From assembly GCF_000935215.1 (NCBI RefSeq), contig NZ_JXXD01000168.1, positions 1 through 53,849 of the forward strand: a stretch of DNA of 53,849 nucleotides, in the 5' to 3' direction. The notes under the pieces are model-generated. The model was not told the DNA's origin, did no database searches, and worked only from the letters and a program-made list of their open reading frames with translations. The stretch comes from Stutzerimonas stutzeri (lineage in GTDB: Bacteria; Pseudomonadota; Gammaproteobacteria; Pseudomonadales; Pseudomonadaceae). The position numbers were made by a program, and so were the translations under genes. Below are positions 1 to 15,670 of this stretch, piece by piece; the first letter of the stretch is position 1, and the number at the start of each line of letters is the position of its first letter.

Positions 1-348
1 GCGGGGCTTTTCACCCCCGCCGTAGTGCGAGTTGCCGTAGCCGAGGATGAACTGGGTGCTCAGCCCATGAGCGGCGGTTGCCTTCAGGTAACGGTGCCAG
101 GATGGCTCGATTTTCAATTGCCCGGGCCGGCGTTCGACATAGGCCCAGTGGGCGTCGGTGCGCACGGAGGTGATGCCGGCATCGCGCATCATCGCGTAGG
201 CGCGGCCGCTGGGGTCGCCCTTGTGCAGTTCATGGGCACATACGCCGACCACGAAAGGCTCCTCGGTGGTCTGGGCCGGTGTAAACGGAGCAAGGCCAAG
301 CAAGCCGCCCAGCAGCAGGGTGTTGAGCGGGGTAGAGCGCTTCGTCAT
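1..348 (-). CDS. Secreted glycoside hydrolase-like protein (N-terminal part, cut by window edge)
   Basis: Only the first 116 codons are in the window. The ATG at 348 opens a Sec-type signal peptide: basic MTKR, a hydrophobic Leu/Gly-rich stretch to about residue 22, then an Ala-rich cleavage region before TTEEPFVVG. The mature start (FVVGVCAHEL, then MRDAGITSVRTDAHW and YVERRPGQL) has the layout of the first beta-alpha units of clan-A (TIM-barrel) glycoside hydrolases such as PslG/GH39, where an Arg-x-Asp-x-His-Trp segment follows the first helix. It is the last visible gene of the exopolysaccharide operon, 24 bp after the Wzy-like gene. By analogy with PslG it probably trims or hydrolyses the polymer in the periplasm. 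The family and exact substrate are inferred; the catalytic glutamates lie outside the window. Confidence 0.6.
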   Translation of the reverse strand, partial: MTKRSTPLNTLLLGGLLGLAPFTPAQTTEEPFVVGVCAHELHKGDPSGRAYAMMRDAGITSVRTDAHWAYVERRPGQLKIEPSWHRYLKATAAHGLSTQFILGYGNSHYGGGEKPR

Positions 349-372
349 GTGGATCATCCGTGAAGGTAGGTC

Positions 373-1671
373 TCAGGTCAGGTGCTGCAACTCGGGCAGC
401 CGCTGCGCCGCCAGGTTGTTGCTCGGGGCGCGGGCCGGGGTCAGCACGTGGGAGATCGCCAGGCCCAGGAATAGCGTGGCGATGGACACCTCCAGTACAT
501 CCGTGGCCCAGGCCACCAGGCAGATGCAGAAAACGATCGGCAGCAACGCGCTGCGCAGTCGCGAGCCCCGCTCATGCAGGCGCAGCATCAGCGGAAAGGT
601 CAGCAGGTAGAGCAGCACACCGAACACGCCGAGCATTCCCCACAGGTACAGCGCGGTATTGTCGGCAATGCTCAGCAACTCCAGCCCGGGTACGGGATAG
701 ACCTTGCCAGTGCTGCCCACCGCGCCGAATCCCGCGCCCCACCAGCCCCATCCCTCACGGGTGATGACCTCGATGAAGTTCGGCCAGCTGTTGATCAGGC
801 GGTCGGCGAACGAGGCCAGCAGCGAGCCGTTGTTGGCGGCGTTGGGGTCCAGGCTGAGCACCAGGCTGGCCATCGGCAGCATCAGGCCGACCAGCACTGC
901 GACGAGAAACGCAGTGGCGCTGGCGAAGCGGTAGGCCGTGACGATCAGCATCAGCAGGGTCAGCACGTAGGCCGCCGCGGTGGATTTGTTGGTGGTCAGC
1001 ACGATGCCGATCAGCGCTGCGATGTAGAGCATCAGGCGTAGCACGCGCGGCTGGATGAATGCGGCGATGAACAGGCTGTAGATCGCGATCATCACCGACA
1101 GCGCGGTGGACATGCGGGCGAAGCCGCCGATGCGGTCGATGTCGTCGAATGCCCACGAGCGGTTGGCGCTCAGTTCCACCTCGCCGACCATGTAGCTGTA
1201 GCCCTTCCACGGGACGCTGGTGAACATGTCCAGGGCGATGCCGACGAAGCAGGCAATCAGGCAGAAGCCGATGATTCGGCGCAGCAGTCCGAGCCGCAAC
1301 TCCACATGGCGGCCGCAAATCAGGCCGAACAACAGCGGAATGTAGATGAACAGGCTGAAACCGATATTGGCCAGTTCGGCGCCATGCATCAGCGCCAGTT
1401 GGCTGGAAGTCACCAGCCCCAGCAGTACCAGCCAGAAGGCCGGCCAACCGCGGTAGCGCAACAGCTCCAGGCCCAGTGCGATCAGGCAGGCAACCTTGGG
1501 CAGGTACAGCAGCCAGGAGACTCCGGCCATGTCGAAGTAGTAGCGCAGGGCGCCGGAGAAGGTTTCAGTCAGCAGCAGCGAGGCGACGACCAGCGTCAAC
1601 AATGTCGGCTTGTCGAAGGCCAACGGATTCGAGTCGCGTCGCCGCGGGGTAATCAGCAGGCTCTGGTTCAT
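373..1671 (-). CDS. Wzy / O-antigen-ligase-like polysaccharide polymerase, integral membrane
   Basis: A 432-residue very hydrophobic protein with about ten to twelve predicted membrane segments, beginning with LLTLVVASLLLTETFSG near residue 25. It has a longer periplasmic-type loop (about residues 285-350, including a Trp/Gly-rich GWGWWGAGFGAVG) before the last helices. That loop position is typical of the Wzy/WaaL-type O-antigen polymerase and ligase superfamily. In a Wzx/Wzy-dependent pathway this protein would join flipped lipid-linked repeat units in the periplasmic face of the inner membrane. The ATG at 1671 is chosen because the longer frame upstream has no family character. This places the start 107 bp inside the end of the preceding glycosyltransferase gene. 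Such proteins diverge fast, so polymerase versus ligase cannot be settled here; the neighbouring Wzx- and Wzc-like genes favour polymerase. Confidence 0.75.
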   Translation of the reverse strand: MNQSLLITPRRRDSNPLAFDKPTLLTLVVASLLLTETFSGALRYYFDMAGVSWLLYLPKVACLIALGLELLRYRGWPAFWLVLLGLVTSSQLALMHGAELANIGFSLFIYIPLLFGLICGRHVELRLGLLRRIIGFCLIACFVGIALDMFTSVPWKGYSYMVGEVELSANRSWAFDDIDRIGGFARMSTALSVMIAIYSLFIAAFIQPRVLRLMLYIAALIGIVLTTNKSTAAAYVLTLLMLIVTAYRFASATAFLVAVLVGLMLPMASLVLSLDPNAANNGSLLASFADRLINSWPNFIEVITREGWGWWGAGFGAVGSTGKVYPVPGLELLSIADNTALYLWGMLGVFGVLLYLLTFPLMLRLHERGSRLRSALLPIVFCICLVAWATDVLEVSIATLFLGLAISHVLTPARAPSNNLAAQRLPELQHLT

Positions 1672-2875
1672 GGTGGATTCTCGTTCCCTGAAGTGTTTCA
1701 CGCAGGATGGTCTGGTATTGATCCAGCATGCGTTCCATATCCAGCAGCGGCAGCACGCTGGCCCGTGCCTGGCTGGCGAGCCGCTGCCGCAGTGCGCTGT
1801 CGATGTAGAGCCAGAGCATGGCGATGCCGAGTGAGTCGGGATCATCGGGCGAGCAGAGCAGGCCGTTGCATTCGTCGCGGATGATCTCCGGCAGCCCGCC
1901 CATGTTGCTGGCGATCACCGGCAGGTTGTTGGCGCAGCCTTCGACGGCCACCAGGCCGAACGGCTCGCCCCACAGCGACGGCACCACCAGCACGTCGATG
2001 CTCTGCATGAACTCGTCGCTGTCGCAGTAGCCGAGAAAGCTGACCTTTTTCGGATCGGCCATGGCCTTCAGCCGGGCTTCGTAGTCCAGCTTGCCGCGCC
2101 CGGCGATATCCAGCCGCGCATCGATGTCCAGCCGTTGGAACTGCTCGATCAGCCAGCCGACGCCCTTGTTCTCCGACAGCGTGCCGATATAGCCGAAGCG
2201 CAGTGGATGGTTGCTGCGCTGCCTGGGCTTGCTGCCCTGACCGGGGTTGGCCGGCGTGCAGTTGTGCACCACATGCTGGCGCGCGCCACTGAAATAGCCC
2301 TGTGCGGTGATGCGCTCGAGCACGAAGCGGCTGACGCCGATCGCCGTGGCCACTTGCGCTGAGGCGCCGGCGTGGCGGAGACGGAACACCGAACACATAC
2401 CGCACTGGCGCTGGCAGCTCTTGCCGTGGTTGAACATGGTGTCCTTCGGGCAGAGCAGGTACAGGTCGTGCAGCACCTGGACGATCGGCAGGCCGGCGGC
2501 GGTGATTTCGTCCCAGGCGGAAATCGACCAGCCGGTGAGGTTGTTGCAGACCACGATATCCGGCTGCTCCCGCGCGATCACCTCGCGCACGTGACAGCGC
2601 ATGTCGCGGTTGTAGCGGTCCCGGTAGTGCCAGCCGAGGCGGGCGACGCGACTCGGGCGCTGCTGGGTGTAATGCCAGTAGCTGTTCGCCAGGTTGGCGC
2701 GATAGACCCGCACACCGTCCTGAATCTGCATGTTCAGCCCGGCATCCGGGCCGGTCGCCAGCACTGCCACCTCACAACCACGCCGCTGCAACCCTTCGGC
2801 CAGGTGCCGGAGGATGACTTCTGCGCCGCCGCCGACATGCGGGGTGTAGAACGCATTGAGGAATAGGATCTTCAT
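1565..2875 (-). CDS. Family 4 (GT-B) glycosyltransferase
   Basis: 436 residues. The N-terminus MKILFLNAFYTPHVGGGAEV is the standard acceptor-domain start of GT4 enzymes, with the Gly-Gly-Gly-Ala loop. The C-terminal half has GYIGTLSENKGVGWLIEQF (start of the donor Rossmann domain) and PSLWGEPFGLVAVEG, which holds the E-x7-E motif that contacts the nucleotide sugar. Four cysteines at about 144-163 (CPKD, CQRQCGMC) resemble a small metal-binding knuckle seen in some GT4 proteins. It should add a sugar to the lipid-linked repeat unit at the cytoplasmic face. The last 35 or so residues lie in sequence that also encodes the start of the Wzy-like protein and have no family character, so the C-terminus may have been lengthened by loss of an earlier stop codon. 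Donor and acceptor sugars are unknown. Confidence 0.85.
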   Translation of the reverse strand: MKILFLNAFYTPHVGGGAEVILRHLAEGLQRRGCEVAVLATGPDAGLNMQIQDGVRVYRANLANSYWHYTQQRPSRVARLGWHYRDRYNRDMRCHVREVIAREQPDIVVCNNLTGWSISAWDEITAAGLPIVQVLHDLYLLCPKDTMFNHGKSCQRQCGMCSVFRLRHAGASAQVATAIGVSRFVLERITAQGYFSGARQHVVHNCTPANPGQGSKPRQRSNHPLRFGYIGTLSENKGVGWLIEQFQRLDIDARLDIAGRGKLDYEARLKAMADPKKVSFLGYCDSDEFMQSIDVLVVPSLWGEPFGLVAVEGCANNLPVIASNMGGLPEIIRDECNGLLCSPDDPDSLGIAMLWLYIDSALRQRLASQARASVLPLLDMERMLDQYQTILRETLQGTRIHHEPEPADYPAATRLESVGLRQADIVDAGRRLAAAD

Positions 2876-2937
2876 CGGTTGGCTCGCTGATTGAACCTGT
2901 CAGGCTGCTCGCATGGCCCTACGGGCACTCGCCTGGC

Positions 2938-3447
2938 TCAGGAGTAGCACTGGAGATAACGGGTGGGTACCCGGACCTTCTGCTCACGCTGCAGCAGGTT
3001 GAGCAGGATGACGGAGCGTTCTTCGCCGTCACTGCTGACGAAGATCGCTTCGATGTCGCTGAAGCTGCCCCCGCTGACTTGGACCCGTTCGCCGGGTGAG
3101 AACGGCGCAGCCGCCATGGTCTGCGGCTGGGCGAGGCGCTGTCGCAACTGTTCGATCAGCTCGTCGCGTACCGGCGTCGGCTGGCCGCCGAAGCTAACTA
3201 CGCGGCTGACACCACGGGTGGAGCGGATCGGGTACCAGTTGTCGTGAATGCAATCGAGCCGGATGAACAGGTAGCCCGGAAACAGCGCCTCGCCGGACTT
3301 GGTCCCCTGTGAGCCGCGCAAGGGCGCAGGCGCCTTGAGCGGGCGGTAGCACTCGAAGTGCTGGCGCAACAGGTGCTCCTCGGCGCGGGCCTCCTGGCGA
3401 GGCTTGGTCTGGATCAGGTACCAGCGTGCGGTAATGCTCGGTGTCAT
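2938..3447 (-). CDS. rfaH: RfaH-type transcription antiterminator (NusG paralogue)
   Basis: 169 residues, the usual RfaH length. Residues 8-105 form the NGN domain that binds the RNA polymerase clamp: RWYLIQTKPRQEARAEEHL, ALFPGYLFIRLD, then IRSTRGVSRVVSFGG. After a short linker, residues 117-169 form the KOW domain: FSPGERVQVSGGSFSDIEAI, then SVILLNLLQREQKVRV. This C-terminal half resembles E. coli RfaH more than NusG, notably in the IEAIF...DGEERS...LLNLL run, so a fold-switching tail is plausible but untested. RfaH binds the ops signal in nontemplate DNA, suppresses Rho termination and helps recruit ribosomes. The gene sits inside the exopolysaccharide operon, and an ops-like sequence lies in that operon's leader at 11225-11236, which suggests self-regulation. 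Start: ATG with AAGGA about 8 bp upstream. Confidence 0.88.
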   Translation of the reverse strand: MTPSITARWYLIQTKPRQEARAEEHLLRQHFECYRPLKAPAPLRGSQGTKSGEALFPGYLFIRLDCIHDNWYPIRSTRGVSRVVSFGGQPTPVRDELIEQLRQRLAQPQTMAAAPFSPGERVQVSGGSFSDIEAIFVSSDGEERSVILLNLLQREQKVRVPTRYLQCYS

Positions 3448-3501
3448 GGGATGTCCTTCCCTGATTGGCCTGCCCGAATCCCGATGGCAGGCGGAATGTC
3501 G

Positions 3502-4245
3502 TCACGCCAGTGTCAGCGTTGCCCTTTTTTCCTGTCCCTCGACCACGCTGAAGCGCTGCAGCAATTCCTTGATCTCTTCGCGGCTGTTGAACATCAGCAC
3601 GTCGATGATCGACAGCGACGGCACGAACGGATGCTTGAGCTGCGCGTAGGTGACCTCATCCATGCGCAGGAAGCGCAACAGCAGACCGTCGGCGCGGAAG
3701 CGGGCAGGGCAGTACAGCTCCATGCCGCCGATGGGGTTGAGGTAGAGCTCGCCGTCCATCCGGTGGGTGATCTGGATGACGCGGTCCTGCATGTCCATCT
3801 TCGCTGGCAAATCGAGGCTGGAGCCGCGATAGATCGGTGTGCGGATGTTCAGGTAAGCACAGAGGCAGCGCAGGGAGTTTTCGGTGAACAGCGCCAGATT
3901 GCGTTCCGGGCACTGCAGGATGCCGCGGATCAGCGGCAGCACCGCATCGCGCTGGGGTGCCTTGGCGTAGCAACGCTCGAGGGTCAGCATCAGCCCCGCG
4001 GCTTCCTTGTCGAAGTCGTCGCAGAGCCAGCGCTCGTTGATGCGCTCGGTCTGATGGCCCTTCTTCAGCGGAAAGCTGATGAGCTTGGGTTGGCCATTGA
4101 CGAGAATCCGGTTGCGGTTCATCCAGGAGCCCCTGACGAATTGCAGGTCGTCACCCAGCACGAATACGTCGCTGAGCGCGATCAACTGAAAGTAGCCCAG
4201 GTACGGAAATAGGTAGGGCTGCATCATCGAGACGGTTCTGAGCAC
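3502..4245 (-). CDS. WbqC-family protein
   Basis: 247 residues. The N-terminal run SMMQPYLFPYLGYFQLI is the signature opening of the WbqC family, followed by the family's DDLQFVRGSWMNRNRIL and PLIRGI blocks. WbqC proteins are encoded in many O-antigen and exopolysaccharide loci and are thought to take part in modifying a sugar or its amino substituent. The exact reaction is not something I can state from sequence. The start is a GTG at 4245, supported by a strong AAGGAGGTG ribosome-binding site. It lies 22 bp after the tyrosine-kinase gene and 54 bp before rfaH, so it belongs to the same operon. It is probably cytoplasmic, with no signal peptide or membrane segment. An amino-sugar modification would fit with the DegT aminotransferase at 8997-10199. 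Confidence 0.85.
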   Translation of the reverse strand: MLRTVSMMQPYLFPYLGYFQLIALSDVFVLGDDLQFVRGSWMNRNRILVNGQPKLISFPLKKGHQTERINERWLCDDFDKEAAGLMLTLERCYAKAPQRDAVLPLIRGILQCPERNLALFTENSLRCLCAYLNIRTPIYRGSSLDLPAKMDMQDRVIQITHRMDGELYLNPIGGMELYCPARFRADGLLLRFLRMDEVTYAQLKHPFVPSLSIIDVLMFNSREEIKELLQRFSVVEGQEKRATLTLA

Positions 4246-4267
4246 GGTGCACCTCCTTGTCTGGCGA

Positions 4268-6478
4268 TCAGGCTTGCTGGGTGTAGGTGTAATAGCCGTA
4301 GGCGCCGCTGTCGTACGGCGAGGTCGAGGCCTTGCGCTTCACGGCATTGAGGATCACGCCTTTGAGCAGCACGCCGTTCTGCGCGAGCCGCCGCTTGGAT
4401 GCATCGATCTGCGAGCTGGTGCTGAGGCCGAAGCGGGCCACCAGCAGGTTGGTACCCGACTGCTGGGCGACCAGTACGGCGTCGGTCACCGCGAGCACCG
4501 GCGGCGTATCGATGATGATGAAGTCGTAGAGCTTTTCCGCTTCACGCAGCAGGCGGGAGAAGTTGTCGTGCATCAGCAGTTCGGACGGATTCGGCGCGGA
4601 GAACCCGGCGGAGATGAAGTGCAGGTTCTTCTGCTCGGTGCGGTTGGTGATCTCCGCGAGGTTCAGGCCACTGGCCAGTGCATCCGACAGCCCGTGACGC
4701 GGCGCCATGCCGAACAGGGTATGCAGGTAGCCGCGGCGCATGTCGGCATCGATCAGCAGCACGCGCTGGCCGGTCTGCGCGATCACCGCAGCAAGGTTGC
4801 TCGACACGAACGACTTGCCAACCGAAGGGGTCGGGCTGGTGATCATCAGCACTTTGTTGCGCGCCTCGAGCATGGCGAACTTGAGGCTGGTACGCAGGCT
4901 GCGCAGCGATTCGACCGCCAGATCGGTCGGTTCGGTGAGGCTGAGCAGTCGGGTCTTGCCGTCGCGGCTCTTGCGGCTGCGATTGAGCTGATCCTGAGAG
5001 GCGCTGTAGGGCAGGCCGGCATAGACCGGTACGCCAAGCTTCTCGATCACGTCCGGGCTTTCCACACCGCGGTAGAAGGCCTGGCGCAGCAGGATGACTG
5101 CCGCCGAGACGAGCAGGCCGACGAAGATCGCGATGGCCACCACCAGCGGTTTGACCGGTTTCGACGGCTTCTCGATCATCGAGTAGGCGTTGTCGATGAT
5201 GCGCACGTTGCCGATGGTGCCGGCGCGCAGGATGTCCTGCTCCTGTGCCTGGTTCATCAGCAGCGTGTAGGTCTGGGTCGTGACTTCCATGTCACGTTGG
5301 AGGCGCAGCAACTCCTGCTGCGTCATAGGGAGGGCGTCGACCTTCTTCAGCAGCTGCGCCTTTTGCGTCTGCAGCTCGTTCATCTGGGTGATCAGCGTGC
5401 GATAGGTCGGGTGCTCGCGGGTATAGAGGCGGTCGTACTCCACGCGCTTGAGCGACAGTTCGGATATCTGCGTTTCCAGCGCGACGATCTGGTCGAGCAC
5501 ACCCTTGGTCTCGATGCTGATATCCACCGATTTGGAGCTGGTCTGGTAGGCATTCAGCGCGGCTTCGGCCTTCTCCAGCTCCTTGCGCACCTGAGGTAGT
5601 TGAGAGCGCAGGAAGTCCAGGCGCTGGGCCGCTTCTGCCGAGCTGCGCTGGATGTTCTGGCTGACGTACAGCCGGCTGATCTCGTCCAGCACATGGCTGG
5701 CCAGCTGCGGGTCCGGGTCTTCCAGGGACATGTAGATGATCCCGGAATCCTTGCCGGCCTCGCCGACCTTCAAGCGGTTCTGGTAATCCAGCGCGGTGGT
5801 CTGCGGGCGGTTCCTGACTAGTTGGAATTCGGTGCCAGGACGCGCTTCCAGCTGGGCGATCTGCACCTTGAAGCCCTGGTTCTCCACAGCTTCATTGACC
5901 TGGCCGCGCAGAATCAGCTGCTGCTCGTCGTCATGCAGCGTGAAGCTGCCGGCCGTGCCGGCGATCAACGTCAGCTCCACGCCCAGATACGCTTCGGGCA
6001 CATCGAGCTGGAATACTTCGAGCTTTTCCCCACCCCACGCATAGCCGGTCAGGCCGAACAGCGGGGTGGCCAGCGCGCCATCAGTCGCCGGGTCATGCTT
6101 GCGCGCCATGAAGGCGCCGAACACCGGGAAGTGATGGGGTTTGGCGACGATGTAGAGCTTTAGCTCCTCGACGGCTCTGCCGAGCACGGCGCGGGATTTG
6201 AGCAGGGAGATTTCAGTGACCGCCTGGGACACCGAATCCGGCCGGGCCGATATTTCCGGCACGCCGGTGATCGCGGCTTTTTTCGGTTCGATCTGGATCA
6301 TCGCGGTCGCCTGGTAGATCGGCGTGGCGATCAGGGCATAGAGCACGCCCAGTGCAGCGAAAAAGCCGGTAATGGTGACGATCAGCGCCTTGTGATCGTA
6401 GGCGGTGCGCATTATTCCGGCGAGGTCGATGCGGTTGTCCGCGTCATATTCCAGCGAAGAGCGGGTCAAGGCAGTCAT
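4268..6478 (-). CDS. Wzc-like chain-length determinant and BY-type tyrosine kinase
   Basis: 736 residues combining the two parts of a polysaccharide co-polymerase. The N-terminal Wzz domain has a first membrane helix at about 33-52 (LIVTITGFFAALGVLYALIA), a long periplasmic coiled-coil region (about 290-400) and a second helix near 445-465. The cytoplasmic kinase follows, with Walker A SPTPSVGKS at 548-556, Walker A' VLLIDADMRR at 573-582 and Walker B FIIIDTPP at 653-660. The C-terminus ends in a tyrosine cluster (Tyr722, 727, 729, 730, 732), the usual autophosphorylation tail. It should set polymer length and coordinate Wzy polymerisation with export. It starts with ATG preceded by GGAAGG and is 51 bp downstream of the GT2 gene. 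No phosphatase (Wzb) or outer-membrane Wza gene is visible; these may lie beyond the left edge. Confidence 0.93.
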   Translation of the reverse strand: MTALTRSSLEYDADNRIDLAGIMRTAYDHKALIVTITGFFAALGVLYALIATPIYQATAMIQIEPKKAAITGVPEISARPDSVSQAVTEISLLKSRAVLGRAVEELKLYIVAKPHHFPVFGAFMARKHDPATDGALATPLFGLTGYAWGGEKLEVFQLDVPEAYLGVELTLIAGTAGSFTLHDDEQQLILRGQVNEAVENQGFKVQIAQLEARPGTEFQLVRNRPQTTALDYQNRLKVGEAGKDSGIIYMSLEDPDPQLASHVLDEISRLYVSQNIQRSSAEAAQRLDFLRSQLPQVRKELEKAEAALNAYQTSSKSVDISIETKGVLDQIVALETQISELSLKRVEYDRLYTREHPTYRTLITQMNELQTQKAQLLKKVDALPMTQQELLRLQRDMEVTTQTYTLLMNQAQEQDILRAGTIGNVRIIDNAYSMIEKPSKPVKPLVVAIAIFVGLLVSAAVILLRQAFYRGVESPDVIEKLGVPVYAGLPYSASQDQLNRSRKSRDGKTRLLSLTEPTDLAVESLRSLRTSLKFAMLEARNKVLMITSPTPSVGKSFVSSNLAAVIAQTGQRVLLIDADMRRGYLHTLFGMAPRHGLSDALASGLNLAEITNRTEQKNLHFISAGFSAPNPSELLMHDNFSRLLREAEKLYDFIIIDTPPVLAVTDAVLVAQQSGTNLLVARFGLSTSSQIDASKRRLAQNGVLLKGVILNAVKRKASTSPYDSGAYGYYTYTQQA

Positions 6479-6529
6479 TGGGAATCCTTCCTCATGGTGC
6501 GTTTTTGCAAAGAAGCGGGGTCGGGCTGA

Positions 6530-7462
6530 TCAGCTCCTGGCCAGCCGTGGGCTCAACCGGCGTAGCAGGTTGAGGCTGATGTTCTGGGCGATGGTTGAAA
6601 GCGCCTGGATCTTGCTGAACGGCGAGATCAGCGATAGGCACTCGCCGAACACCTGGATCAGGAAATACTCGTAAAGCGCGTTATTGCCGATGCGGTTGTA
6701 GTAGCGCGCCAGCGAGTAGTGGGCGTGCATGGCCATCTGGATGCGCTGCCGGCTCGGCTGCATGGAGAAGATGCCGCCCTCGTGCACGCGGTAGGCCGCG
6801 GGGCTGATGCCTTCCATGAACTTGCCTTTGCCGTAGGCGCCGAGCAGCGACCACCAGCAGATATCCAGCACCTTCACGCCGAGCAATTCCGCTGGCAGTT
6901 CCTGAATCAGGTTGCGAAAGCACACGGTCAGCGTCGAGAGCGGGCGGCCCTGCATCAATTCCAGCGCCGTGGCGTCCTTGCGTAGCTTTCCGGTCAGCTG
7001 CGGGCTCTGGATGATGCCCTGGCTGTTGAACATGAACGCATCGTGATAGGTGATCACGTAGTCACGATGCTGCTCGAGAAAGTCCACCTGCTGCTGCAGC
7101 TTGGTCGGATCGGTCCAGTAGTCGTCGCCTTCGCAATAGGCGATGTATTTGCCCCCCGCACGGGCGAATAGCCGCGTGCTGAATGGCACGCCGAGGCTGA
7201 ACTGATTCTGCGTCTGGTAGATCGGCTTGATGATGCTGGGGTAGCGCGCCGCGTAGTCGGCGATGATCGCGGCGGTGGTGTCAGTCGAGGCGTCGTCGTG
7301 GACGATCACCTCGAAAGGGAAATCCGTTTCCTGCTGGAGGAAGCTCTCCAGCGCCTTCCTTATAAAGGATGCGTGGTTGTAGGCCAGGCAGACGACGCTC
7401 AGCAGCGGTTCGGTCTTGCCGCCCCAACGTTCAATCAAGGCTTGCTCGCTCTTCAATTCCAT
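6530..7462 (-). CDS. Family 2 (GT-A) glycosyltransferase
   Basis: 310 residues. The N-terminal nucleotide-binding fold is clear: LLSVVCLAYNHASFIRKALE, then FEVIVHDDASTDTT with the conserved Asp-Asp, and YCEGDDYWTDP, which supplies the metal-binding acidic motif. The C-terminal 100 residues are less typical and probably form the acceptor and membrane-contact part; no full transmembrane helix is obvious. It is likely to extend the lipid-linked repeat unit on the cytoplasmic side. The ATG at 7462 lies 32 bp inside the end of the flippase gene and has no good ribosome-binding site, so translation is probably coupled to the upstream gene. Sugar specificity cannot be read from the sequence. Confidence 0.87.
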   Translation of the reverse strand: MELKSEQALIERWGGKTEPLLSVVCLAYNHASFIRKALESFLQQETDFPFEVIVHDDASTDTTAAIIADYAARYPSIIKPIYQTQNQFSLGVPFSTRLFARAGGKYIAYCEGDDYWTDPTKLQQQVDFLEQHRDYVITYHDAFMFNSQGIIQSPQLTGKLRKDATALELMQGRPLSTLTVCFRNLIQELPAELLGVKVLDICWWSLLGAYGKGKFMEGISPAAYRVHEGGIFSMQPSRQRIQMAMHAHYSLARYYNRIGNNALYEYFLIQVFGECLSLISPFSKIQALSTIAQNISLNLLRRLSPRLARS

Positions 7463-8993
7463 TTTTGGATGCTCGCTTGGTGATGAGTAGATGAAGCTTG
7501 AGTAGCAGTGATTTCGAGGTCGCCGCGACCAGCAGCAGGCAGATGAACCCGCTTACGGCCAGCGCGATCAGAATGTCGAAGCGGTTGTCGCTGACGATCA
7601 GCAGGAACAGCGGCTCGCCCAGCGCCACGCCGATCACGGTCGCGGCGGTAATCCGCAACATGTCTCGTGCCCAGACGCCCTGCAGGCCCGGAGCAAAGCG
7701 CCGGTGCACCACCGGCGGCCAGATCACGAAGGTCGCCAGGCGCAGGAAGAACCACGCCAGTGCGGCACCGTAAGCGCCGTGTGCAAGCGCTGCGTAGATC
7801 ACGATCGGCATGCTGATGGCGGTGGAAACCACGCTGTACCAGATGTGCAGGCGCAGCTGGCCGTAGGCGTACTGCAGGTAGAACTGGAAGGCGCCGACCG
7901 CCATCAGTGCGCTGCCCGGCACGTACCAGAACAGCATGCGTTCGCTCCATTGGGCAGCGGCAGCGTCGCCAGTCCAGGCGAAGATCAGCGCCTGACCGTG
8001 CCAGGCGATCACCGCAGCCATGGGAAACAGCACGCTGCAGACGAAGCGGGTGGCGTTCAGGTACAGCCGCTCCATCTCGGCGATTCGCCCTTCGGCCACG
8101 AGCATGGTCATGCGCGGCAACAGCGTCTGCACCAAGGGGTTGGTCAGGGTCATGATGCCGGTGGTGATCAGCGCCACCAGCGAGAAGTAGCCGTACTCCT
8201 TGAGCAGCAGCACCTTGGAAAGCAGCACTTTGTCCAGCTGGGTCAGCACGATCCACAGCAGCGAGGTGAAGAACATGCCGCCGGCGAATGGCAGCACCGG
8301 CTTGACCACGCGCCAGTCGATGCCGGTGAGCAAACGTGGGCTGGCCAGTTGCACATAGGCCTTGCTGGCAAAGGCCAGCGTTTCCACCAGGGCGACGGTT
8401 GTTTGAAACAGGAAGAAGTCCAGCGGGTCTTGCGAGACGTAGGCGACCAGGAACAGGCCGCCGAAGTAACGCAAGGTGGCGATCAGTACGTTCGTTGCGT
8501 TCAGCCAGCCGTGCAGCTCGACGCCCTGCAGTCCGCTTTTGTAAAGGGTTGCGTAGAGCCTTAGCCCGACCATCAGGCCCATCAGGCTGATGCACTGCAT
8601 GATGGTGACGGTGCTCAACTCGCGCGCCTGCAGCCAGGTTCCGGCGATCCAGCCGCTGCTAAGGTAGATCGACACGCAGGTTGCCAGCGCGATGGGCAGC
8701 AACAGCAGCTCGAACGAGCGCAGCAAGCGCCCGGCGGGGCCGGGCGCAGCGGACAGGTCGCCCTGCCCGCGGTAGTGCGCTACTTGTCGCACCAATGCAG
8801 GCGACATCCCGGCATCTAGCAGCTGCAACCAGGCCTGGAGCACGGCGAAGAAGCCAATCAGGCCGTAGGCTTCGGCGCCGAGGTGCTTCAGGTAGAACGG
8901 CAGGATCAGAATGCCGACAAGCACGGCATACGCCTGCCCGAGGTAATTCAGGCTGGTATTGCGGATCACCGATGACCGCTTGGGATCTGACAT
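7431..8993 (-). CDS. Wzx-like polysaccharide flippase (MOP superfamily)
   Basis: 520 residues with about 12-14 hydrophobic helices spread through the whole length. The N-terminus SVIRNTSLNYLGQAYAVLVGILILPFYLKHLGAEAYGLIGFF is the typical start of polysaccharide-biosynthesis (Wzx/RfbX, PST) transporters, in particular the Leu-Gly-x-Glu-x-Tyr-Gly-Leu motif. It should flip the undecaprenyl-linked repeat unit across the inner membrane for polymerisation. The basic C-terminal tail (KLHLLITKRASKNG) is cytoplasmic in character. It follows the aminotransferase gene by 3 bp and overlaps the GT2 gene by 32 bp, so it is tightly coupled in the operon. Confidence 0.9.
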   Translation of the reverse strand: MSDPKRSSVIRNTSLNYLGQAYAVLVGILILPFYLKHLGAEAYGLIGFFAVLQAWLQLLDAGMSPALVRQVAHYRGQGDLSAAPGPAGRLLRSFELLLLPIALATCVSIYLSSGWIAGTWLQARELSTVTIMQCISLMGLMVGLRLYATLYKSGLQGVELHGWLNATNVLIATLRYFGGLFLVAYVSQDPLDFFLFQTTVALVETLAFASKAYVQLASPRLLTGIDWRVVKPVLPFAGGMFFTSLLWIVLTQLDKVLLSKVLLLKEYGYFSLVALITTGIMTLTNPLVQTLLPRMTMLVAEGRIAEMERLYLNATRFVCSVLFPMAAVIAWHGQALIFAWTGDAAAAQWSERMLFWYVPGSALMAVGAFQFYLQYAYGQLRLHIWYSVVSTAISMPIVIYAALAHGAYGAALAWFFLRLATFVIWPPVVHRRFAPGLQGVWARDMLRITAATVIGVALGEPLFLLIVSDNRFDILIALAVSGFICLLLVAATSKSLLLKLHLLITKRASKNGIEERASLD

Positions 8994-8996
8994 GAG

Positions 8997-10199
8997 TTAC
9001 TGCTGGCCTCCGGATGTCAGGGGCATGCGCGGGTATTCGGCGCCCGGCAGGCGCTCCGTGGCGCTGAACAGCCCGAACGCTTCGGCAAGGGGCTGGAACA
9101 GCGTGCGGCTCGACTGCTCACTGTGGATTGCCTCCTGGATCAACGTCTGCATGACCTTCTCCTGCACCTTGCGCGGCAGCCCGGGATAGATCGGCAGGCA
9201 CAGGATCTTGCGACTCAACGCTCGCGAGCGTGGTTGTGGTACCTGCGGCTGCAGATGGTCGAGCGTGTCCAGCGAGGGGTAGAAGTAGCGGCGGGGGTTG
9301 ATGCCGTTCTCGTTCAGTTGCGAGCGGCAGCGCAGCAGCTGGCTTTCGTCGGCAAGGGCAACGGGAAAATAGCTGTAGTTGCACTGGGATTCGGGCTGCG
9401 GTCGTTGCAGCTCGAAATGCTCGCCGAGGCGCCGCTCGTAACGATGGCCGATCTCCGCCCGGCATTCGAAAATCAGCTCGATGTCGTCGAGTACGCACAT
9501 GCCCATCGCGGCAGAGAACTCGTTGAGCTTGGCGTTGATGCCGATGCCTTCGATCTGGTCGGTGTCGACGATGCCGAAGTTGCAGAGCAGACGGATGCGG
9601 TCGGCCAGCGCGTCGTCGTTGGTGACGATGGCGCCACCCTCGATGGTGTGAAACAGCTTGGTCGCATGGAAGCTCAGCGTGCTGATATCGCCCCAGTCGT
9701 AGACCGACCGCCCTTTGTGACGAACGCCGAACGCATGGGCGCCGTCGTAGACGACCCTCAGATTGTTTTTGCGCGCGATCTGCTCGATGCGTTCGACATC
9801 GCAAGGATTGCCGAATACATGCGTCGCGACGATGGCGGAGGTGTCGGGCTGGATATTTCGCTCGATCTGTTCCGGGTCCAGATTCCAGGTCGCCGAATCG
9901 ATGTCGGCGAAGATCGGCTTGATGCCTTCCCATTGCAGCGAGCTGGTGGTGGCGACAAAGCTGAAGGGGGTGGTGATGGCGCTGCCGGTCAATCCCAGCG
10001 CTCGATAGGCAATCTGCAGCGCGATGGTTCCGTTGTTGGTGAGGATGATGTTCCTCACCCCGAGGTAGTCCTTGAGTCGTTGCTCGAGTGCAGTCACTAA
10101 CGGTCCGTTGTTGGTGAGCCAGCCGGTGTTGTAGATCCTGTCGATGTAAGCCTTGAACTTGTTTTTGCTGCCCAGGTACGACTTGGTCACGTTGATCAT
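8997..10199 (-). CDS. DegT/DnrJ/EryC1/StrS-family sugar aminotransferase
   Basis: 400 residues. This PLP-dependent family aminates keto-sugars bound to nucleotides. Visible markers are the phosphate-binding start LTNNGTIALQIAYRALGLTG (53-72), TPFSFVATTSS (77-87), the cofactor aspartate in YDGAHAFG (Asp152) and the Schiff-base lysine in FHATKLFHTIEGG (Lys181). It starts with ATG at 10199 behind AAGGAAATCACC. No nucleotide-sugar dehydratase that would make the keto substrate is visible in the window, so that step must be encoded elsewhere or beyond the left edge. The product would be an amino sugar for the polymer. The C-terminal 40 residues are longer and more variable than usual for the family. 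Confidence 0.92.
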   Translation of the reverse strand: MINVTKSYLGSKNKFKAYIDRIYNTGWLTNNGPLVTALEQRLKDYLGVRNIILTNNGTIALQIAYRALGLTGSAITTPFSFVATTSSLQWEGIKPIFADIDSATWNLDPEQIERNIQPDTSAIVATHVFGNPCDVERIEQIARKNNLRVVYDGAHAFGVRHKGRSVYDWGDISTLSFHATKLFHTIEGGAIVTNDDALADRIRLLCNFGIVDTDQIEGIGINAKLNEFSAAMGMCVLDDIELIFECRAEIGHRYERRLGEHFELQRPQPESQCNYSYFPVALADESQLLRCRSQLNENGINPRRYFYPSLDTLDHLQPQVPQPRSRALSRKILCLPIYPGLPRKVQEKVMQTLIQEAIHSEQSSRTLFQPLAEAFGLFSATERLPGAEYPRMPLTSGGQQ

Positions 10200-10274
10200 G
10201 GTGATTTCCTTATCGAAGCTCAGCCGCCCCCGAATGGCATTCGGGGGGTATCGCTGGGTGCTACAGATGCGCGC

Positions 10275-11048
10275 TCAGACAGGTTGATGCGCGCCGATTG
10301 CGCTGGCCTGCCGTGCCCTGCGTTGGTTGTGCCTGAGGATCATTCGAGTCATCAGGCTGCCGGCGTGGGGATCGCCGTAGTGGAAGATGGCGGTAGCGCG
10401 CAGCTGCGCCGGATCACAAGGCTCGTTGGCATGCAGGGATCGATAACCCCAGAACAGGTAGAGATTGCCCGGTACCAGCTGCAGGCGCTGTGGCTTGAGC
10501 AGCCCGAGGCCTATCGCGCAGCTAATCAGTTTGCGGCTCAACTTGTTCTGCAGCAGTGCTTTCTCCACCACGTTGACCAGCACGTACTTGCGAAGCTTGC
10601 GCAGGTTGGGAAACACCAGCAGGTCGCCGCGCTGGTCGCCGTCCTGCGGGATTTCCACAGGTAGCAATGCCGTTACCAGAGAAGCGTCGTAGTGGAAGCA
10701 GTTCGACTCCTTGCGTCCTGTCTGCCCCTGCACGCATCGCATCACCAGGTAGATGCGCTTGCTTGGCGCCGCCTTGCCCGCGCCGAGCTGGTAAACGTCG
10801 TCCAGCAGCGACTGGAACTCCGGCGCGCTGCTCAACGTGGCAAGTAACGAGCCCGCTACCTGTTCACCGTCGTGATGAGCGAAATATTCCCCGTGATGCT
10901 GTCGAGCCTGCTCGTGAACCTGCTCGCGCAGTTGAGTTAGTTGCAGATTGTTCAAGTAGCCGGGTATGCAGGCGTAGCCATTCTGATTGATATCCCGCGC
11001 AATCAATGCCTTGTCCTGATCTTCCGTTCCATAAAAGATTGTTGACAC
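10275..11048 (-). CDS. Probable 2OG-Fe(II) oxygenase (phytanoyl-CoA dioxygenase-like)
   Basis: 257 residues, first gene of the exopolysaccharide operon. The start is GTG at 11048 with GGGAG about 8 bp upstream. The arrangement fits a double-stranded beta-helix iron oxygenase: NCFHYDASLVTALLP gives the His119-x-Asp121 iron pair, SLHANEPCDP gives the distal His206, and LRATAIFHYGDPH gives Arg217, where the 2-oxoglutarate-binding arginine is expected about ten residues after the distal histidine. No signal peptide is present, so it is probably cytoplasmic. The family hydroxylates small molecules, but nothing here identifies the substrate; a sugar, lipid carrier or substituent of the polymer are all possible. 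I assign the fold from motif spacing only, hence moderate confidence. Confidence 0.6.
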   Translation of the reverse strand: MSTIFYGTEDQDKALIARDINQNGYACIPGYLNNLQLTQLREQVHEQARQHHGEYFAHHDGEQVAGSLLATLSSAPEFQSLLDDVYQLGAGKAAPSKRIYLVMRCVQGQTGRKESNCFHYDASLVTALLPVEIPQDGDQRGDLLVFPNLRKLRKYVLVNVVEKALLQNKLSRKLISCAIGLGLLKPQRLQLVPGNLYLFWGYRSLHANEPCDPAQLRATAIFHYGDPHAGSLMTRMILRHNQRRARQASAIGAHQPV

Positions 11049-11224
11049 TGTAGTTCTCCCTGCGCAAAGACGAGGCGAAACGGTTTGTCGAGCCGCAGCT
11101 ACTACACGCTGCTGCTGATCGGCGTCCTGGGTGGGAATAAAGAATTACGGCGTAATGCCTGGGCAGTAGGCTTTTAGCCTGTGACGAAAGTTAATGCCGA
11201 TCTAAAATATTCTTTTATTTAGAC

Positions 11225-11258
11225 AAAGCTACCGCCATCGACTTATTTACATGTCGAT
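11225..11258 (-). promoter_or_regulatory. ops-like RfaH loading site with preceding inverted repeat
   Basis: On the minus strand the leader reads GGCGGTAGCTTT from 11236 down to 11225. The first eight bases equal the invariant core of the enterobacterial ops element (GGCGGTAG), and positions 9 and 11 (C, T) also fit the E. coli form. Directly upstream is an inverted repeat ATCGAC (11258-11253) and GTCGAT (11242-11237) with a 10-base loop. The site is 177 bases before the GTG of the first operon gene, which is the usual placement for ops in a long untranslated leader. The operon encodes an RfaH homologue. The same octamer occurs by chance inside genes elsewhere in this window (10389, 23024 and 35910 on the plus strand), so the call rests on position and context. 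Confidence 0.55.
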
Positions 11259-11398
11259 TTGAATAGCTTGTACGTATTCCCCGTCATCTGCGATCGGCTA
11301 ACGTCCGCGTGTGACCTTGAGAGAATCAGGCATGGCTACCGCACTCCGGGCACTCTGCGAGCCCCGACTCTCTCAATGATTATGGCGAACGAGCCCGC

Positions 11399-11418
11399 AT
11401 CGCTTTACTAAAAGCGAT
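11399..11418. repeat. Perfect 8-bp inverted repeat in exopolysaccharide leader region
   Basis: ATCGCTTT-acta-AAAGCGAT, a perfect 8-bp stem with a 4-base loop. It lies about 350 bp upstream of the first operon gene and could be an operator or an RNA hairpin at the transcript start. There is no U-tract on either side, which argues against an intrinsic terminator. Confidence 0.5.
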
Positions 11419-11884
11419 ACTAATCAGGCAGGGGGTTTAACTCTTGCGCCGCAAAACTTGACCTGTCCAGTTGGTCTTAAACTGCTCTGCAACGTATTGC
11501 TCCCTGTTGCGAATAGATATCCGTCATAACGTGAACCAAGTCAAGCTAGGGAGCCAAAAAAAAGTTGTGGGTGAAGGTTGCGAGGTGTTTATGAGAGCCA
11601 AATTATTGAGTTGAAAAGAGTTTTGTTTTTGACGCTGGCTGGCCTAGCGCTATCATGAAAGGTTATAGCGAATGTGGTAATTAGCTCTAAGCTGAATAAA
11701 CCATCTGCTCCTTTGCTGGCCATAAATGACGTATGCATAAACAAAGGGAATATTATTCCGACTATGCTGAGCAACTATTCGGATAAAGAGTTAATTCTAC
11801 GGACCCGTTGTTACAAGACGCGGCTGACTGGCCGAAAGAGGGGGGTGCTTGTCTGTACGTGACAGAAAAGACGCGCAAACGAAG

Positions 11885-11910
11885 AAGGCCACTCGTCTGA
11901 GTGGCCTTTT
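11885..11910 (-). terminator. Terminator of first tRNA-fMet gene
   Basis: Perfect 10-bp stem AAGGCCACTC / GAGTGGCCTT with loop GTCT, immediately downstream of the tRNA 3' end on the minus strand. The tail after the hairpin (CTTCTTCGTTT) is only moderately U-rich. Reading plus-ward it is followed by TTTT, so it may also work in that direction. Confidence 0.75.
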
Positions 11911-11917
11911 CGTGATT

Positions 11918-11994
<77 letters not shown>

Positions 11995-12163: not shown

Positions 12164-12240
<77 letters not shown>

Positions 12241-15223: not shown

Positions 15224-15670
15224 ATGAGTTCGTTTCCCATGGCCCCTCTGTTCCGGCAATCCGTGGGCTTCGATCGTTTCAATGACCTGTTCGAGTCCGC
15301 GCTGCGCAACGACACCGGCAGCTCGTATCCACCCTATAACATCGAGAAACACGGTGACGACCAGTATCGAATCGTGGTCGCAGCCGCCGGCTTCGAGGAG
15401 TCCGACCTCGATCTGCAGGTCGAGCGCAGCGTGCTGACCATCAGTGGCGGGCCGCGCGAAAGCGAGGCCGAGAATGTCACCTATCTGCATCAGGGCATCG
15501 CTCAGCGGGCGTTCAAGTTGTCGTTCCGGCTAGCCGACCACATCGAGGTGAAAGGCGCTGCGCTGAACAGTGGCCTGCTCAACATCGACCTGGTGCGCGT
15601 GGTGCCGGAAGAGGCCAAGCCCAAGCGCATCCCCATCAATGCCGATCAACGGCCCGCGCTGGAGGGTTGA
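15224..15670 (+). CDS. ibpA: Small heat-shock protein, IbpA/Hsp20 family
   Basis: 148 residues. The alpha-crystallin domain runs from about residue 32 to 125: YPPYNIEKHGDDQYRIVVAAAGF, DLDLQVERSVLTISGG and FKLSFRLADHIEVKGAALNSGLLNIDL, with the conserved (A/G)-x-L-x-x-G-L-L block. The N-terminus FRQSVGFDRFNDLFESAL is characteristic of IbpA. The C-terminal KRIPIN is the I-x-I type oligomerisation tail. The protein holds denatured proteins in a refoldable state for the DnaK and ClpB systems. Regulation looks layered: a sigma-32 promoter and a possible thermometer in the leader. AGGAGG lies 6 bp before the ATG, and a terminator follows. Confidence 0.95.
   Translation: MSSFPMAPLFRQSVGFDRFNDLFESALRNDTGSSYPPYNIEKHGDDQYRIVVAAAGFEESDLDLQVERSVLTISGGPRESEAENVTYLHQGIAQRAFKLSFRLADHIEVKGAALNSGLLNIDLVRVVPEEAKPKRIPINADQRPALEG

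Follow-up and report, generated by a model that had tools for sequence, protein, structure and literature searches.

We analysed a nine-gene exopolysaccharide operon on the minus strand of a 53,849-nt stretch of DNA from Stutzerimonas stutzeri (hereafter the window). Its seventh gene encodes an RfaH-type transcription antiterminator, and its leader contains two elements resembling the operon polarity suppressor (ops) site of RfaH. The window is a complete contig of a 4.88-Mb genome in 397 contigs belonging to the genus Stutzerimonas. A preliminary description, which knew only the downstream leader element, had proposed a self-contained RfaH-ops circuit here. The features in question are as follows, in the direction of transcription.

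11539..11544, minus strand: -35 hexamer TTGACT of a candidate leader promoter, aligning with TTGACN in the genus leaders
11516..11521, minus strand: -10 hexamer GATATC, after a 17-bp spacer; the predicted transcription start is ~165 nt before element 1
11348..11364, minus strand: hairpin before element 1, GGGC-9-GCCC, 4 nt from the element
11331..11343, minus strand: ops-like element 1, TGCGGTAGCCATG, pause TG at 12/13; all 14 genus leaders have [GT]GCGGTAGC at this place
11237..11258, minus strand: hairpin before element 2, 6-bp inverted repeat ATCGAC-10-GTCGAT, abutting the element
11224..11236, minus strand: ops-like element 2, the one described earlier, GGCGGTAGCTTTG, pause TG at 12/13
10275..11048, minus strand: gene 1, GTG start at 11048, matching no Pfam and no NCBIfam family
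8997..10199, minus strand: gene 2, DegT/DnrJ/EryC1 aminotransferase (PF01041)
7431..8993, minus strand: gene 3, Wzx-type flippase (PF01943)
6530..7462, minus strand: gene 4, family 2 glycosyltransferase (GT2; PF00535)
4268..6478, minus strand: gene 5, Wzc-type tyrosine autokinase (PF23607, PF13807, PF02706; TIGR01007 161.3 bits, cut-off 108.05)
3502..4245, minus strand: gene 6, WbqC-like protein (PF08889)
2938..3447, minus strand: gene 7, rfaH, 169 aa (TIGR01955 and NF006534 over cut-off; alignment to E. coli RfaH)
1565..2875, minus strand: gene 8, family 4 glycosyltransferase (GT4; PF00534)
373..1671, minus strand: gene 9, O-antigen-ligase-like (Wzy_C 23.8 bits, under the cut-off of 31.7)

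The nine genes overlap or are separated by gaps of at most 75 bp, and in one relative (L068) same-strand open reading frames (ORFs) continue past gene 9 as far as the 20.5-kb locus extends. Gene 1 is present in 12 of 13 genus loci despite its lack of family matches. Element 2 stands 188 bp before the start of gene 1, with element 1 another 107 bp upstream, and the rfaH start is 7.8 kb downstream of element 2.

The leader elements and the RfaH encoded by gene 7

Both elements carry the ops core bases 3-8, CGGTAG, on the sense strand of the untranslated leader. The octamer originally reported there lies where it was described, within element 2 (11236-11224, minus strand), which directly follows the 6-bp inverted repeat (11258-11237); to that description come a second site, a hairpin before each site and a shift in the pause dinucleotide. 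The octamer occurs six times in the window, whereas the mean in 100 shuffles was 1.41 and none reached six. The five copies besides that of the leader are all on the plus strand: those given earlier at 10389, 23024 and 35910 are real, and two more, at 3342 and 39595, had been overlooked. In the genome, GGCGGTAGCNT is found 15 times, which is fewer than its reversed control (36). Twelve of these sites lie within reading frames of 200 aa or more, and one is inside a 120-aa ORF that adjoins a frame resembling xseA (an identity read from the translation). The only frame overlapped by another is a reverse-oriented one of 158 aa, with a longer reverse frame next to it; the last is the leader site of this operon. 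Judged by such contexts, there is no plausible ops among the 15 GGCGGTAGCNT sites other than the operon leader.

JUMPstart elements have been noted to contain a stem-loop (PMC2864571). An Rfam search of positions 10900-11900 returned no match at E-values up to 1, JUMPstart RNA (RF01707) included, and the leaders of six relatives likewise gave no JUMPstart RNA match at the gathering threshold. An identity with the Rfam JUMPstart family was thus dropped.

That gene 7 is of RfaH type, as first proposed, is borne out by both NCBIfam RfaH equivalog models, TIGR01955 (186.0 bits, cut-off 144.5) and NF006534 (133.5, cut-off 124), and by an alignment to E. coli RfaH that spans residues 8-160 of 169 and includes the KOW half. 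The protein falls under the cut-offs for the UpxY model (75.3 vs 100) and the LoaP model (43.8 vs 125). Its nearest named relatives are from Stutzerimonas kunmingensis and other Stutzerimonas or Pseudomonas records, at 98% identity, and the genome encodes one RfaH and one NusG.

Several contacts of RfaH with ops are given in PMC5995543. The main ones, K10, R16, H20, R23, Q24 and R73 (E. coli RfaH numbering), are all found in the window protein. Across 81 aligned rows, Q13, R16, R23, Q24, T72, R73 and G74 are invariant, and K10 is kept in 80 rows and H20 in 70, the other 11 having N. E48, F130 and R138 are identical in all 81; P replaces R11 in every row, and the HTT stretch is N or S, then W, then Y. 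In a wider set, the autoinhibition residues E48 and R138 are kept in 38 and 42, respectively, of 42 rows in which rfaH is embedded, i.e. lies inside its presumed target operon. In an AlphaFold2 (AF2) model the N-terminal domain is usable; the C-terminal blocks, with predicted local distance difference test (pLDDT) values of 33-48, are drawn as short strands and one short helix.

Conservation, pause register and distribution

We aligned 14 leaders of the genus, namely that of the window and those of 13 further loci. Both elements are present in all 14, element 1 lying 75-121 bp upstream of element 2, and the exact octamer is found in 13; the exception, L054, instead carries TGCGGTAG twice. Conservation in orthologous leaders, by which the preliminary description had suggested its proposal be judged, rules out a chance octamer.

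A larger set comprised 76 leaders, that of the window and those of 75 named relatives (five of 80 named loci were dropped, having no usable leader), and was dereplicated to 42 representatives, for which the best pairwise blastn match covers less than 60% of the leader in identical bases. In this set, which reaches the P. syringae group, 67 of 76 leaders (35 of 42 representatives) have two sense-strand copies of [GT]GCGGTAG, spaced 75 to 147 bp apart, and the reverse complement is present in none of the 76. The reversed string occurs in 18 of 76 leaders; in the window, GAT before GGCGG produces such a match. The most widespread 8-mer is GCGGTAGC, found in all 42 representative leaders. Of the 77 elements in the representatives, 84% are preceded, at a distance of 0-4 nt, by a perfect stem scoring at least 10; the corresponding figures are 18% for mononucleotide shuffles and 19% for other positions in the leader. 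The 5′ stem strings differ, with 24 kinds upstream and 23 downstream. One conserved stem sequence was thus not found, and only the geometry is conserved; folding z-scores of 48-nt pieces are weak on average (-0.9 downstream and -0.3 upstream, 35 each). We also scanned genomes across the class for spaced pairs of GCGGTAGC. Although 65 of 369 genomes matched, the reversed control matched more often by eye (counts not summed), so the pair pattern alone is uninformative; one match, in G440, retrieved as locus L257, has no rfaH. Taken together, the leader comparisons strongly imply a functional constraint on the elements.

In E. coli, the validated targets have a TG at positions 11/12 in common, bases 3-8 of ops matter to RfaH and not to pausing, and all single ops substitutions but G2C reduce activity in vivo (Zuber et al. 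2018, PMC5995543). A pause TG follows 135 of 143 leader elements in the 76-leader set, against 18 of 149 background elements (those on the opposite strand or far inside the locus). The register of this TG varies: it is at 11/12 in 53 of the 143, at 12/13 in 82, and at neither in 8. Within the 67 two-element leaders, the upstream element has it at 12/13 in 55, and the downstream element at 11/12 in 42, at 12/13 in 19 and at neither in 6. We call the window elements ‘ops-like’ because their TG is at 12/13 instead of 11/12. The later register is linked to a T at position 1, being found for 16 of 17 T elements and 30 of 60 G elements in the representatives (p 0.0006, on the 71 elements having TG), a link confounded by kinship.

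Not all rfaH genes are embedded. Of 47 further Pseudomonadaceae loci hand-picked from the RfaH match list, 8 have an embedded rfaH and a pair of upstream elements, 27 are of the adjacent type, an exact GGCGGTAG following the rfaH match at a distance of 79-612 bp, and the remaining 12 fit neither description by these rules. Among 39 loci of other families, likewise hand-picked, a pause-TG element lies at most 1 kb after rfaH in 17 and at most 600 bp before it in 3; an embedded rfaH with twin sites was seen in none of the 39, four of which had less than 8 kb of upstream sequence. Where a pause TG is present, it is at 12/13 in 58 of 72 embedded elements and in none of 47 adjacent elements (p 6e-21, kinship uncorrected), all 47 of the latter having it at 11/12. 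The size of this contrast depends on the sample, since 12/13 is the register of 82 of 143 elements in the 76-leader set. In a quick tree of 121 rows, made without bootstrap and with long branches in several rows outside the branch concerned, all 31 embedded-tandem rows and 12 of 13 rows with one upstream element passing the TG rule fall in one 43-row branch, with a Shimodaira-Hasegawa-like approximate likelihood ratio (SH-aLRT) support of 99. By this tree and these samples, the embedded rfaH genes form one clade, and elsewhere rfaH is often beside a single ops. Within the genus, the presence of the operon's wzx matches that of this RfaH in all 18 genomes in which the two were sought: 14 have both genes and 4 lack both. 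A wzx orthologue is present in 47 of 56 genomes, in one of them in four pieces.

Four loci (L107, L122, L125 and L134) are without matches to gene 1 and WbqC and have one leader element each. In the window, a pair of tRNA-Met (CAT) genes (11918-11994 and 12164-12240, minus strand) is found a short way upstream of the leader, and tRNA pairs adjoin the operon also in L052 and L076; the locus may thus be an insertion hot spot. In L052, a match to the ROSE_3 RNA thermometer (1952-2017, minus strand, 66.9 bits) lies ~4 kb from the operon, and the window itself contains an Hsp20-like ORF (15224-15670, plus strand), named from its translation only.

A proposed antitermination circuit and its alternatives

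A self-encoded, ops-recruited RfaH antitermination circuit is the best explanation, and a very probable one, of the gene identities and order, the conserved elements with their pause dinucleotide and hairpins, the conserved residues, and the uniqueness of the site in the genome. From this anatomy we infer promoter use, RfaH loading, relief of polarity and feedback. Transcription would begin ~460 nt before gene 1 and pass two hairpin-backed pause-TG elements 107 nt apart. Without RfaH, polarity would stop most polymerases short of the distal genes, and the rare polymerases arriving at gene 7 would yield the first RfaH. This RfaH would load on later polymerases at either element, from the exposed non-template strand, exclude the action of NusG and Rho, and couple the polymerase to ribosomes. 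The whole operon, rfaH included, would then be expressed, giving a graded positive feedback. The self-contained circuit originally proposed is strengthened by the leader conservation, the lack of another plausible ops and the main contact residues; its ‘feed-forward’ character is not, as a loop of this kind is positive feedback.

Several observations weigh against such a circuit. Although the main contacts are kept, every one of the 42 embedded rows in the wider set has P for T68 and R for N70, with N replacing H20 in 19 and Q replacing E48 in 4. T68 and N70 are among the E. coli RfaH residues touching ops (PMC5995543). On the side of the DNA, both window elements have their TG at 12/13 and not at the 11/12 of validated E. 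coli targets, T at position 1 of element 1 departs from E. coli ops, and 9 of 76 leaders (7 of 42 representatives) have a single [GT]GCGGTAG. In a simple scan, the pair TTGACN-17-GATAnn is top-scoring in 22 of 42 leaders, but in the window that scan ranks another pair first. A strict scan of the sense strand of positions 1-11700 gave no match, which in itself favours the circuit. As the strict scan misses even the leader promoter, promoters are uncertain, and an internal promoter may serve rfaH. Finally, good Shine-Dalgarno-like sites stand at several of the nine genes, unlike in RfaH targets without ribosome-binding sites, which makes it less likely that the circuit pays chiefly by bringing ribosomes to messages devoid of such sites.

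RfaH might instead be loaded in cis and independently of ops, the nascent protein binding the polymerase that has just transcribed rfaH, with the leader sites being relics or mere pauses. An ‘ancestral’ mechanism of this type has been proposed in the literature for in-operon NusG paralogues and monomorphic RfaHs, and it would fit the changes of T68 and N70 and a C-terminal domain whose state the AF2 model does not settle. However, the elements are conserved 8 kb upstream of rfaH although the leader diverges, and we regard in-cis loading as quite improbable. It seems still harder to believe that another cellular RfaH chiefly drives the leader in trans while the in-operon copy serves other targets. 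A second RfaH does occur in 8 of 14 genus genomes with an embedded RfaH, where the circuit thus need not be closed, a further point against it. Yet the window genome has one RfaH, one NusG and no other ops-looking site, and five more genus genomes have no more than two matches, of which the second, where listed, is NusG.

Within the self-encoded circuit, the preliminary description had considered a bistable switch, with ON and OFF cells for polysaccharide production. The anatomy implies positive feedback but not bistability. In a toy model, in which steady states were counted for 4000 random parameter sets per loading scheme, more than one steady state arose in none of the 4000 sets with one site, and in none of 4000 with non-cooperative loading at either of two sites. 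Two steady states were found in 10% of 4000 sets if both sites must be filled, which would make loading cooperative. A need for both is unlikely, as RfaH stays bound after a single loading event (PMC2871177, which describes RfaH-ops function), and we consider a bistable switch improbable. Since bistability in the model is limited to the both-sites requirement, the twin sites more likely add sensitivity than a switch; most likely, they make loading more probable while RfaH is in short supply. A further idea is that the embedded clade of Pseudomonadaceae forms an autocatalytic circuit with its own ops dialect of twin, hairpin-backed sites, at least the upstream one pausing polymerase one base later; the circuit would thereby be partly insulated from the adjacent-type RfaH-ops system. 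The latter, with TG at 11/12, is present in many of the same cells as embedded RfaH. We think such insulation unlikely, if worth considering, and lowered our estimate of it slightly because the downstream element has the adjacent-type register in most two-element leaders.

Comparison with known systems

The operon looks like an EPS273-type locus by functions and protein sizes. In Pseudomonas stutzeri 273, the 18-gene EPS273 locus (PMC5532660) encodes the same functions with similar sizes, as judged from its Table 1 and not from sequence: in EPS273 and here, respectively, the WbqC-like protein has 247 and 247 aa, the kinase 736 and 736, GT2 309 and 310, the flippase 508 and 520, DegT 393 and 400, and RfaH 175 and 169. 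The table lists no counterpart of gene 1. Deletion of the EPS273 kinase gene left polysaccharide nearly gone and almost no biofilm, and EPS273-M (RfaH) was proposed earlier as activator of the locus (PMC5532660); in the excerpts available, that paper gives no ops, leader, feedback or test of EPS273-M. A Gac-regulated, species-specific polysaccharide cluster has also been reported in S. stutzeri MJL19 (PMC12125118) and is possibly the operon analysed here.

In kind, the system is that of E. coli RfaH with ops/JUMPstart, with which it shares an RfaH equivalog, the GCGGTAG core, a pause TG, a stem-loop close to ops and a long surface-polysaccharide operon. It differs in that rfaH is itself the seventh gene of the operon presumed to be its target, and in having two elements, both with TG at 12/13. 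The contrast with E. coli drawn earlier, where rfaH lies outside the operons it controls, therefore holds, but regulators encoded in or next to their presumed target operon are already known, namely UpxY, TaA, ActX, LoaP and Shewanella RfaHs. For in-operon NusG paralogues, recruitment has been called unknown (PMC7593976, PMC7819879), as has the function of ActX, that of R6K being treated in PMC13250579; here, by contrast, ops-like sites in the leader can be named, and gene 7 is under both the UpxY and LoaP model cut-offs. The monomorphic in-cis RfaHs of a 2026 preprint (PMC13015549) are also encoded in or next to a long envelope operon. They have lost key ops-binding residues, whereas the main residues and the sites are retained here. 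In the same preprint, 17 of 212 metamorphic RfaHs adjoin an operon, and linkage in cis is thus no novelty for an ops-type RfaH. Nor is it rare among the other loci sampled, as the adjacent type with a single ops accounts for 27 of the 47 Pseudomonadaceae loci and 17 of the 39 from other families. These loci, however, mostly have one element, with TG at 11/12, and rfaH stands before ops rather than 8 kb after it.

In open-licence papers, among the matches listed, we recognised neither two ops sites in one natural leader nor an rfaH feedback loop. While RfaH-ops in kind, the system thus appears to be new in its form: rfaH is embedded, there are two sites, and many elements have a later pause TG. 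In Stutzerimonas and in the P. syringae group alike, an RfaH that keeps the main ops contacts is encoded within the operon it presumably controls, downstream of conserved sites in the leader. If the circuit operates as proposed, it would offer a handle on a biofilm polysaccharide operon, and twin loading sites and antitermination-based self-activation would become testable in laboratory strains of environmental origin, as would an evolutionary model; a published proposal has cis-encoded regulators arising first and ops recognition later (PMC7819879). An RfaH that is ops-dependent yet cis-encoded would not have been foreseen by the published split between cis-encoded, ops-free regulators and those that act in trans and depend on ops.

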